A stretch of DNA of 64,000 bases from Halomicrobium zhouii (lineage in GTDB: Archaea > Halobacteriota > Halobacteria > Halobacteriales > Haloarculaceae), in NCBI RefSeq assembly GCF_900114435.1, contig NZ_FOZK01000002.1, positions 1,178,001-1,242,000 on the forward strand, given 5' to 3'. Positions within the stretch are counted from its first letter, which is position 1; every line of letters starts with the position of its first letter. The position numbers and the translations under genes were made by a program. The notes under the pieces were generated by a model. It was not told the origin of the DNA. It did not search any database and saw nothing but the letters and a program-made list of their open reading frames with translations. Shown piece by piece: positions 53,427 to 61,150 of this stretch.

Positions 53427-55130
53427 TCAGCCGTCGTTTCTCGGCAGGGTGAACCTGAACGTCGACCCCGCTCCCGGCTCGGAGTCGACCCAGATGTCGC
53501 CGCCGACGGACTCGCACTGCTCGTCCGTCGAACCCGTCCTCGTGCCGCTCGATCGGACGCCATCGGACTCGCCGCGCTCGTCCGTCGAGCCCACGCTCGC
53601 TTCCTTCGCGTCGACGCCGAGTGACTCACTCTGCTCGTCCGTCGAGCCCGGCCTCGCTGCGCTCGTCCGGACGCCGTGGCGCTCGACAATCCGTTCACAC
53701 AGTGCCAGCCCGATGCCAGTCCCAGCGTGGTCGTCGGGCGCGTGGAGGCGCTGGAACACCTCGAAGACGCGCTCGCTGTCCGATCCCGGAATCCCGATCC
53801 CCTCGTCTCGGACAGAGAAGACGTACTCCGCGCCGTCCCGCTCGACGGAGACGTCGATACGGGGCGGTTCGTCGCCGCTGTACTCGATGGCGTTGTCCAG
53901 CAGGTTCTGGAACAGCTGGCGCAACTGGCCCCTGTCCCCCTGGACGCGTGGCAGGTCGTCGACCGTTATCTCGGCGTCACTCTCGTCGATGCGCACCTGC
54001 AGGTCGTCGCAGACGTCGTCGAAGACCGCGTTCAGGTCCACAGGTTCGAACGGGTCGCCCCGGGTGTCGACCCGGGAGTACTGGAGCAACCCGTCGATCA
54101 TGTCGCGCATGCGGTCGGCGCCGTCGGCGGCGTAGTCGATGAACTCCCGCCCGTCGTCGTCGAGTTCGTCGGCGTAGCGCTGCTCGATCAGCTGGAGGTA
54201 ACTCGACACCATCCGCAGCGGTTCCTGGAGGTCGTGCGACGCGGCGTAGGCGAACTGTTCGAGGCGCTCGTTGGACTCCTCCAGGCGGTCGACGAGTTCC
54301 TCGAGGCGCTGCTCGCGGTCGACCCGCCCGGTGACGTCGCGACCGATTCCGGCCAGTACCGTCTCGCCCCAGGGGTCCTCGAGCGTGGTGGCGGCGAACT
54401 CGAAGGGGATCCGCTCGCCGTCACTGGTCCGGAAGTCGAGCTGGACCTCGACGGAACCCGTCTCGAAGGCCGTCTGGACCGCGGCCCGGATAGTGTCCCG
54501 ATCGTCCTCGCCGAAGAAGTCCGTCGCGTGCATCGAGGCGATCTCGTCGGACGAGTAACCGGTCACTTCCCGCAGACTCTCGTTCCAGCGCCTGAGGTTC
54601 CCCGACTCGTCGAGGACGTAGAACACGTCGTCGATGGCGTCCAGCACGTCGTCCGTGTACCGCCGGTGGCGTTCGAGTCGTTCGTTCGCCGTCGCCAGTT
54701 CGTCGACCGTTACCTCGAGTTCGTGGGCCCGTGTTCTGGACTGGCCGTTGTGGATTCCAGCCGCGAGCCCCGCGACGCTCGCGAGCGCGGTCAGAATCAA
54801 CACGCTCCCCAGGCCGTCTACGCTCTCGCCCGGCTGGAGGCTGTAGAATCCGAGGAGGCCGAGCATCAGGACCAGTGCGCCGAGACTCCAGCCGGCGACG
54901 GTCGGTTCGAACTCGTCGCGGATGTCGAAGTGCGGCAACCGGTACCCGGTGTACAGGACGACGAGGCCGGGGCCGGCTATCAACGCGAAGACGATGAACT
55001 CGCCGATAGAGACGGCTTCGCCCGCCGACACGACCGTCCACCAGACCGCCAGCGCGACGTACAGTCCACCGAGGGCGAGGATGGCGCGTCGGCCACCGAC
55101 CAGGGAGAGAACGCGGTACCAGGCGGCCAT
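53427..55130 (-). CDS. Membrane PAS histidine kinase with a repeat insertion in the ATPase domain
   Basis: A protein of 567 aa. Four membrane helices lie at 16-126, then a PAS domain at about 155-270 and a long signalling helix. The HisKA box follows with the phospho-acceptor H299 (AYAASHDLQEPLRMVSSYLQ). The HATPase domain has N413 (NLLDNAIEYSG), DEGIGIPG and GTGIGLALCERIVERHG. The family then normally continues GGDIWVDSEPG. Here 57 extra residues (486-542) intervene as three 19-residue repeats around GSTDEQxES. No response regulator is adjacent. The insertion lies at the edge of the ATP domain and may be tolerated. Confidence 0.92.
   Translation of the reverse strand: MAAWYRVLSLVGGRRAILALGGLYVALAVWWTVVSAGEAVSIGEFIVFALIAGPGLVVLYTGYRLPHFDIRDEFEPTVAGWSLGALVLMLGLLGFYSLQPGESVDGLGSVLILTALASVAGLAAGIHNGQSRTRAHELEVTVDELATANERLERHRRYTDDVLDAIDDVFYVLDESGNLRRWNESLREVTGYSSDEIASMHATDFFGEDDRDTIRAAVQTAFETGSVEVQLDFRTSDGERIPFEFAATTLEDPWGETVLAGIGRDVTGRVDREQRLEELVDRLEESNERLEQFAYAASHDLQEPLRMVSSYLQLIEQRYADELDDDGREFIDYAADGADRMRDMIDGLLQYSRVDTRGDPFEPVDLNAVFDDVCDDLQVRIDESDAEITVDDLPRVQGDRGQLRQLFQNLLDNAIEYSGDEPPRIDVSVERDGAEYVFSVRDEGIGIPGSDSERVFEVFQRLHAPDDHAGTGIGLALCERIVERHGVRTSAARPGSTDEQSESLGVDAKEASVGSTDERGESDGVRSSGTRTGSTDEQCESVGGDIWVDSEPGAGSTFRFTLPRNDG
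53505..53675. repeat. Three 57-bp tandem repeats inside the kinase gene
   Basis: The block GCTCGTCCGTCGARCCC starts at 53519, 53576 and 53633, an exact 57-base period. The first two copies contain CGGAC, TC, GC, three loop bases, GC, TC, GTCCG (53507-53527, 53564-53584). The third has CCGG-C-C, TC, GC, TGC, GC, TC, G-T-CCGG (53648-53670). This is the same stem, TC/TC, 2-bp, triloop plan as the intergenic palindromes. Confidence 0.85.
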
Positions 55131-58281: not shown

Positions 58282-60309
58282 TCACTCGACGACGAGTTCG
58301 GTGACGGTGACGCTGTCGTAGACGGCCTCGCTCGTCTCCGCCTCGGAGTGGCTACAGACGGCGAGGCCGACGGCGAGCGAGTCGTCGAGGTCTATCCGGT
58401 GCTGGTCGAGCGCCTGCCACTCGTCGCCGTCTCTGGAGAACGAGAGGGTCACCTCGTCACCGACGACGTCGATGCGGTACCACTGGTAGACGTCGTACGG
58501 TTCCTCGAACTGGTCGCTCGCGGCGTCTTCGCCGCGGTGAGCGCGCCACAGCGTCTCGGTCCCGTGGCTCTCGGTCGCACCGACGAAGCCGAACGCCGCG
58601 TCGTCGTCCAGTCCGTCCCGTACCATCAGGCCGGCTTTGCTGTACTCCTGTACCCCCTCGAAGGCGTCGAGACGGCCTTCGACTCTGACGGGATTCGACG
58701 CGTCGCCGTAGACGAAGTGGAACTCGTCGATGTCCTGCCAGATGTCCCGGCCGTTCCCGACGACCGTCCAGCGGTCCGCTGTCTCGTCGTACGTGGCCCG
58801 ACCGGGGACCGACACGTCGCCGACGTCGACGCGCTCGGAGAGTTCGATGACGCCACCGGGGGTGGCGGTTACTGGCGTGACGACGGGACAATCGGTCACC
58901 TCGAACCGGGCGCCGGAACCGCGCTCGCTGTCGGTGACCATCAGTTCCCAGTTCTGCTGGTTCACCGTCTCGGTGACGATGGCCAGTCCCGTTCCAGTCC
59001 CCTTCTCGGAGGTCGTGTAGCCTTTCTCGAGCACCTTCTGGCGGTTCGGCGGGGATATTCCGGGGCCGTCGTCCTCGACGTAGAAGCCCCGGTCGAGCGT
59101 TCCGACGCGGACGGTGACGCCGGGACCGCCGTGGTCGATGGCGTTCTTGAGCAGGTTCTCGACGAGTGGCCGGAGCGTCTCCGTGCCGGTGACGACTTCG
59201 GTTCCCTCGGGGACGTCGACCTCGAGGGTCGCGTCGCCGGTCTCGTTGACTCGCCAGACGCTCTCGACGACGTCGACCAGATCCACCGACGCGACGCCGA
59301 CCTCGAGGACGTCGAGGACTTCCTCGGAGAGCGTCCCGTCCGAGCGGTCCCCCTTCGACAGTGCGTTGAGGTCGTCGATGATCTCCTTGATCCGTTCGTT
59401 GGCGCGTTCTATCCTGTCGAGGGCTTTCTCGTCTCCGTCCCGGGCCAGTTCGAGCGCACCGAGCGACACCTGCAACGGCGTCCGGAGGTCGTGGGAGACG
59501 TAGCTGGCGAACTCGTCGAATCGGCGGCGCTGTTTCTCCAGTTTCCGCTCGGCCTGTATCTGCCCCGTGGTCTCTATCGCGAACCCGACCAGGCCCTGTA
59601 CGTTCCCATCGCTGTCTCGCCAGGGGATCTTGGTCGACTCCGACCAGTACTCGCCGCCCTGCTGGCTGAAGTTCTCGCGTTTGCCCCTGATGGGCTCGCC
59701 CGTCTCCACGACTGCCAGGTCGTCCTCGGTGGCCGCCGCGGCGACTGCCGGGTTGTGGTCGAACACCTCGACGTCCGTCTTCCCGCGGACTTCGTCTGGG
59801 TCCGGCGTGTACGGGACGTCCGCCATCCGGACGTATCGCCCCTGGTCGTCCTTGGCGAACATCGAGAGGCCTCCCTCGTCCAGGAGCGTCCCGAACATGG
59901 CGCTGTCTGCGGCGGCCTGTCGTCGCTCCTCGTAGGTCTCCATCGCGCCGTCCACGGCGTCCCGGAGGGCGGCGTCGTCGGCGGAACGTGGGAGGAATCG
60001 CCGCCCGGTACGTGCCACAGTGGTCGCCACTTCCGGGTCGTCGTCGACGTACGCGAGTACCGGCAGGTGCTCGCTGACGGCGCTGACCGCGTCGTCGAGG
60101 TCGAGGAACGCCGCTTCGTCTCCGTCGAGCGCGACGACGCAGCCCACGTCGTCCCGTGCCGTGAGGGTCGTCCTCGCCTCGTCGACGTCCGCAGCGTCGA
60201 GGACGGCCGTGGCGGCCCCGCCACGGACCGCTGAACGGATCTGCTCCCGATCAGTGTCCGTCCCGCCGACTGCGAGCACGGCGGTCGGCTTCGCGAGAAG
60301 AGAGTTCAT
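58282..60309 (-). CDS. Soluble histidine kinase with receiver-like, PAS and C-terminal jelly-roll domains
   Basis: A protein of 675 aa from the ATG at 60309; the TATA box (TTATTTA, 60341-60347 on the minus strand) rules against the ATG at 60330. Residues 5-125 look like a degenerate receiver, and 135-250 are a PAS domain (MFAKDDQGRYVRMADVPYTP). The HisKA has H273 in SYVSHDLRTPLQVSLG. The ATPase has N389 (ENLLKNAIDHG), EDDGPGISPP and GTGTGLAIV. Residues 475-675 are a concanavalin-like beta-sandwich (YSKAGLMVRDGLDDDAAFGF, YRIDVVGDEVTLSFSRDGDE). No membrane helix or signal is present. Confidence 0.9.
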   Translation of the reverse strand: MNSLLAKPTAVLAVGGTDTDREQIRSAVRGGAATAVLDAADVDEARTTLTARDDVGCVVALDGDEAAFLDLDDAVSAVSEHLPVLAYVDDDPEVATTVARTGRRFLPRSADDAALRDAVDGAMETYEERRQAAADSAMFGTLLDEGGLSMFAKDDQGRYVRMADVPYTPDPDEVRGKTDVEVFDHNPAVAAAATEDDLAVVETGEPIRGKRENFSQQGGEYWSESTKIPWRDSDGNVQGLVGFAIETTGQIQAERKLEKQRRRFDEFASYVSHDLRTPLQVSLGALELARDGDEKALDRIERANERIKEIIDDLNALSKGDRSDGTLSEEVLDVLEVGVASVDLVDVVESVWRVNETGDATLEVDVPEGTEVVTGTETLRPLVENLLKNAIDHGGPGVTVRVGTLDRGFYVEDDGPGISPPNRQKVLEKGYTTSEKGTGTGLAIVTETVNQQNWELMVTDSERGSGARFEVTDCPVVTPVTATPGGVIELSERVDVGDVSVPGRATYDETADRWTVVGNGRDIWQDIDEFHFVYGDASNPVRVEGRLDAFEGVQEYSKAGLMVRDGLDDDAAFGFVGATESHGTETLWRAHRGEDAASDQFEEPYDVYQWYRIDVVGDEVTLSFSRDGDEWQALDQHRIDLDDSLAVGLAVCSHSEAETSEAVYDSVTVTELVVE

Positions 60310-61110: not shown

Positions 61111-61150
61111 CCCGCAGCGGGCTGCCAACTGACAGTTTTCACCGCCGGAA

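Follow-up and report, generated by a model that had tools for sequence, protein, structure and literature searches.

The histidine kinase gene and its domains

The window, i.e., the whole 64,000-nucleotide stretch of DNA analysed here, belongs to a 4.25 Mb haloarchaeal genome. On its minus strand, at positions 58282–60309, it carries a gene for a 675-residue histidine kinase (P0001), the translation of which runs from an ATG at 60309 to a stop codon at 58282–58284, and three peptides quoted in an earlier note on this DNA are all in frame within it. The homologues begin alike in the alignment (MNSLLAKPTAVL / MSHLLADPTVAL / MSCLLTDPTTVL), and the ATG at 60309 is therefore preferred over the mechanical TTG start at 61128. 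The neighbouring genes encode DUF790, methyltransferase and RNase J-type proteins. The nearest named relatives of P0001 come from Halobacteria archaeon HArc-gm2 (96%), Halosimplex (61–62%), Natronobiforma (43%) and Halovivax (38%).

P0001 consists, in this order, of a degenerate receiver, a PAS domain, a HisKA domain, a HATPase domain and a tail of 201 residues. The receiver-like (REC) domain (residues 1–135; 59905–60309, minus strand), which has no phosphorylation pocket, was recognised through a match to the response regulator 1yio and a predicted alternation of beta and alpha elements. The positions of its acidic pocket and phospho-Asp show no conservation across 42 aligned rows, and P0001 itself does not have the phosphorylatable Asp and acidic pocket of an active receiver. 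In the same domain, Cys57 (60139–60141) is nearly invariant (40/42 rows) and may have a redox or structural function. The PAS_4 domain (residues 151–249; 59563–59859; Pfam PF08448, 6.2e-11), the HisKA dimerisation/phosphoacceptor domain (residues 266–321; 59347–59514; PF00512, 8.2e-14) and the HATPase_c domain (residues 377–472; 58894–59181; PF02518, 7e-15) follow on the minus strand. The phosphoacceptor His273 lies within YVSHDLRTPLQV (SHDLRTP) and is kept in 40 of 42 homologues; the N box (NLLKNAIDH), the G1 box (DDGPGI) and the G2 box (GTGTGL) of the HATPase domain are intact, with N385, N389, D413, G415, G439 and G441 all present by motif count. The assignment of P0001 as a histidine kinase with intact catalytic motifs is thus supported by its sequence.

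The hydropathy over 19 residues peaks at 1.48 at residues 331–349 (VLDVLEVGVASVDLVDVVE), an acidic stretch inside the kinase region, so that P0001 has no convincing membrane span or signal, in agreement with the earlier note. Past residue 472, Pfam and the structural model give neither the C-terminal receiver nor the Hpt domain of a hybrid kinase, the only match there being of the DUF1349 type. The window contains another histidine kinase at 53427–55130 (minus strand), composed of a 4TM region, PAS, HisKA and HATPase, with a repetitive GSTDEQ/GSTDER insert near the end of the HATPase domain.

The C-terminal beta-sandwich

The tail (residues 475–675; 58285–58887, minus strand) had been read from the letters as a DUF1349-like jelly roll of about 200 residues following a normal HATPase domain, and this reading is borne out by Pfam, AlphaFold2 and Foldseek. 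The structure prediction that had been proposed for residues 475–675, run in AlphaFold2 with 68 relatives, returned an all-beta concanavalin-type sandwich of 15 strands (pLDDT 96.1, pTM 0.92), which has the two-sheet jelly roll of the concanavalin A-like lectin/glucanase fold. In Foldseek the top matches are the DUF1349 proteins 3mep (ECA2234) and 3o12 (yeast YJL217W), both with probability 1.00, so that the predicted fold is the same as that of the solved DUF1349 members; C-terminal domains of GH43 beta-xylosidases, glucanases and lectins rank lower. Independently, a sequence-profile search of the PDB gave 3o12 (1.2e-10) and 3mep (2.8e-7). The Pfam DUF1349 model (PF07081) matches residues 509–671 with 31.5 bits in hmmscan and 34.4 bits in the genome search, on either side of its curated cut-off of 32.4 bits. 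A search of a viral fold library brought up mostly generic matches, of the concanavalin type or to tail proteins. The tail showed neither a catalytic nor a DNA-binding feature. The identity of P0001 as a kinase with a DUF1349-type tail is near certain; the model of the full chain (pTM 0.53) does not resolve how the tail is placed relative to the ATPase domain.

According to the earlier note, domains of this type usually bind carbohydrate outside the cell. However, yeast YJL217W (3o12) and the GH43 beta-xylosidases are intracellular, showing that DUF1349-type domains occur inside cells as well.

Distribution and origin of the fusion

Matches to the tail profile were found in 48 of the 292 Halobacteria genomes sampled. 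In one group of matches, the tail comes right after the HATPase domain at the C-terminus of a kinase. The family search for such fusions, which the earlier note had suggested, yielded 44 kinase copies beyond the window's own, and 22 of the 292 genomes hold one or more tail kinases. Since the same domain occupies the same place in 44 kinase copies, the tail is not there by chance, and the HATPase-tail fusion is a conserved haloarchaeal subfamily rather than a single oddity. In the second group of matches, the domain is a module of non-kinase proteins. A phylum-wide sample gave two matches beyond the Halobacteria, neither in a recognisable kinase. No kinase fusion was found in the plasmid collection, where records with such a domain are annotated as DUF1349 protein, pectate lyase, alginate lyase or GH16, and never as kinase.

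The window genome encodes a second tail kinase (C3:545652-547841; L016, L191), which adjoins a GAF histidine kinase and has a HATPase insert with the duplicated stretch SSTSPPSHAREDAAGRQPSGEP. Tail kinases also occur as same-strand adjacent pairs in three genomes (G001, G002, G004; L145, L146, L186), and these pairs are apparently old tandems, since their tails are well diverged in the tree. Six members have kept the tail without one or more catalytic residues: the phosphoacceptor His is missing in L011 and L154 (L154:1035-3056), and N- or G-box residues are missing in L010, L017, L149 and L150. From their sequences, these tail-bearing members are apparent pseudokinases.

In the tree of the kinase core, one clade holds all tail-bearing kinases (SH-aLRT 98); its sole tail-less row (L024) comes from a fetched stretch that was cut short of the protein's tail. 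In the tree of the tail, a single branch (87/95, not starred) separates the kinase tails, all of which lie on one side. In an unbiased search of the 292 genomes with just the kinase core as query, the top 29 matches all bear the tail, the first tail-less match being at rank 30. The simplest reading of these three results is one fusion followed by co-inheritance, i.e., the kinase-tail fusion most likely arose once and was then kept.

Mean pairwise identity across the family is 0.39 for the tail, 0.37 for PAS and 0.46 for HATPase, and the pairwise identities of tail and HATPase are correlated (r = 0.77). HATPase and tail are separated by 27–37 residues (median 32), a nearly constant distance. 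Between the tail of P0001 and that of its nearest (96%) orthologue, dN is 0.029 and dS is 0.114, indicating that selection retains the tail; dN/dS for this pair is about 0.25 over the tail and 0.16 over the whole protein.

Relation to secreted polysaccharide enzymes

Within the Halobacteria, the closest non-kinase relatives of the tail are modules of polysaccharide enzymes, namely rhamnogalacturonan lyase (RGL11), GH5 and pectate lyase. Twin-arginine (Tat) export motifs are found on those module proteins that could be read from their start. The scanned bearers include a rhamnogalacturonan lyase that also has ricin-B and dockerin-like domains, and GH5 enzymes in which the module is accompanied by PKD or Fn3; plasmid record annotations add pectate and alginate lyases. 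Kinase tails and exoenzyme modules have in common G-x-G, I-W, F-H, K-A-G-x-M-x-R, W-R, W-x-R, S-x-D-G-x-x-W and V-G-L-x-V-x-S. Judged by these sequences, the tail domain shares common ancestry with the accessory modules of secreted polysaccharide-degrading enzymes.

P0001 and its closest relatives have the whole exoenzyme signature (DIW, DEFH, K558, R564, W588-R589, S653-H654), whereas several more distant kinase paralogues are without parts of it and some without most of it. Residues E585, T621, D635, Q636 and R637 (H at 637 in the window protein) are conserved in kinase tails and unlike the exoenzyme consensus. This pattern is as compatible with a protein interface as with a ligand site. A DVGDVxVAG-like segment lies after the beta-sandwich in five exoenzymes (L159, L160, L167, L178, L179) and before it in the kinases; it is possibly the remnant of a tandem copy or the mark of a permuted arrangement.

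Genomes with both a tail kinase and a secreted module number 5, where about 2 would be expected (Fisher p = 0.053, without correction for phylogeny), and the link by co-occurrence is marginal. The search of the window genome yielded no secreted module of the tail type, only a stand-alone DUF1349 protein of 205 aa.

Gene neighbourhood

A comparison of 26 family loci showed no partner gene conserved beyond close relatives, and no sugar genes or regulator conserved beside the kinase gene; without a shared partner, inference of function from the neighbourhood failed. At four loci of the Halosimplex group (L034, L035, L192, L193), a putative membrane sensor (PF13796, an assignment scanned in L035 at L035:5149-5913) is encoded directly upstream on the same strand; no such gene was seen upstream of P0001 at the window locus. 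Genes for a glycosyltransferase and a UDP-GlcNAc epimerase adjoin two family members, both in the draft genome G003.

Possible roles of the tail

The results above support the assignment as a kinase, the predicted fold and a single fusion that was then retained. For the role of the tail, the reading that we tentatively favour, with not quite an even chance of being right, is that of a ligand-recognition module of exoenzyme ancestry that regulates the adjoining ATPase domain. The ligand recognised by the tail would be intracellular and most likely a carbohydrate or sugar-derived compound, and its binding would alter, in cis, the activity of the ATPase domain, to which a short segment of almost constant length ties the tail. 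Two inputs would then reach the kinase, from PAS on the N-terminal side and from the tail on the C-terminal side, and the kinase may pass its phosphate on to an unlinked response regulator, with kinase and tail domain probably having evolved as one unit since the fusion. Carbohydrate is the first guess for the ligand because of the ancestry of the domain and the retained exoenzyme signature, and glycan binding by the tail is plausible on sequence grounds.

Ligand recognition is favoured by the fold of the family, the single origin, the conservation of the tail, the fixed spacing, the kept exoenzyme signature and the pseudokinases that retain the tail. It is weakened by the loss of signature residues in paralogues, the kinase-specific residues, the neighbourhood, the weak co-occurrence and the full-chain pTM; the sources searched name no ligand for DUF1349 domains, which also counts against it. 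A more specific version is rather doubtful. In it, haloarchaea would have converted a glycan-binding module of their secreted pectin- and polysaccharide-degrading enzymes into an intracellular sugar sensor at the C-terminus of a soluble histidine kinase. Such a kinase would be under control from both of its ends, and its sensor would be of a type that the archaeal two-component censuses do not mention.

The main rival to ligand recognition is protein docking, in which the tail would be a scaffold that holds the kinase to a partner protein, be it a second kinase, a sensor in the membrane, a regulator or an enzyme of metabolism, as in the case of CheA P5; this is a serious possibility without being a probable one. 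It could explain why the tail persists in members that lack the His or residues of the N or G boxes and why conserved residues peculiar to kinase tails depart from the exoenzyme consensus, and it is consistent with the adjacent tail kinases of three genomes and with the PF13796 putative membrane sensor directly upstream in Halosimplex. However, P0001 and its closest relatives retain the exoenzyme signature in full, and no partner gene is conserved past closely related species, both of which argue against docking.

It is unlikely that the tail is an output, such that the kinase would position or regulate a glycan-binding function, e.g., on intracellular intermediates of cell-envelope glycans. 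The C-terminal site past the catalytic domain is the usual spot for output or relay domains, and the glycosyltransferase and epimerase genes beside two family members would suit such a function; however, the tail has no catalytic or DNA-binding feature, and the sugar-gene neighbours are limited to those two members of one draft genome.

Still less probable is a tail that binds nothing and serves as a structural cap or is left over from a chance fusion. For this one might cite the paralogues that have lost most signature residues and the higher dN/dS of the tail in the nearest pair (about 0.25 vs. 0.16 for the whole protein). Against this, each of the 29 best core matches retains the tail, whose conservation equals that of PAS, whose model is of very high confidence and which is under purifying selection. 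The reading of the tail as the degenerate remainder of some other known signalling domain is hardly credible: nothing was found in favour of it, it conflicts with the predicted fold and with the matches to stand-alone DUF1349 structures and exoenzyme modules, and it is excluded at the level of the predicted fold because Foldseek and sequence profiles place the tail with DUF1349 and lectin/GH43 beta-sandwiches.

Sensor modules normally stand before the catalytic core, whereas in the tail kinases a lectin-type module comes after the HATPase domain. If the tail does bind sugar, it would couple signalling to the intracellular carbohydrate state in haloarchaea that use polysaccharides. Should it bind protein instead, it would be a new kinase docking module. 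Sensing by archaeal histidine kinases is described as almost unexplored (PMC6944256), and the tail-kinase subfamily offers a defined, testable case, with one soluble domain and one tail.

Comparison with known systems

The earlier note had considered a soluble kinase with such a tail unusual. The solubility is ordinary, since 62% of archaeal histidine kinases have no membrane segments according to a two-component census (PMC5847659), making a soluble kinase normal in archaea, and the fusion itself belongs to a conserved subfamily. What stands is that no publication describing the fusion was found: the main texts of the census (PMC5847659) and of a later review, as searched, make no mention of a DUF1349-type domain after HATPase, and in the open literature searched no paper connects archaeal histidine kinases with domains of the DUF1349 or concanavalin type. 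The REC-HisK kinases outlined in that census (PMC5847659) are typical of archaea and proposed to be intracellular sensors. Like them, P0001 has an N-terminal receiver-like domain, PAS, HisKA and HATPase and no membrane segment; unlike them, its receiver is without the phosphorylation pocket and a beta-sandwich follows the HATPase domain. P0001 is read as a variant of this known kinase type, a soluble REC-PAS histidine kinase whose ATPase domain is followed by an exoenzyme-type beta-sandwich.

The tail itself resembles the DUF1349 proteins ECA2234 (3mep) and YJL217W (3o12) in fold (TM-score to target 0.72–0.74) and by profile match. However, these are single-domain proteins, whereas the tail is a kinase module, borderline to the Pfam model, and is set apart by an N-terminal stretch D-V-G-x-V...G...W that is not uniform in exoenzyme modules. 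With the haloarchaeal exoenzyme modules (RGL11, GH5, pectate lyase) it has in common G-x-G-x-DIW...DEFH...KAGLMVR...WR...S-x-DG-x-x-W...VGLAV-x-SH; unlike the kinase tails, which group apart from them in the tree, those modules are Tat-exported and have Fn3, PKD, ricin-B and dockerin-like domains as neighbours. The GH43 beta-xylosidase C-terminal domain is likewise a concanavalin-type sandwich (Foldseek E from 4e-6); however, it is part of an enzyme and its identity to the tail is low (about 17%).

CheA provides a functional parallel, in that its P5 domain is beta-rich, follows the ATPase domain, controls a soluble histidine kinase and couples CheA to receptors. The parallel is one of analogy only, P5 having a CheW-like SH3 fold and the tail of P0001 a concanavalin sandwich.
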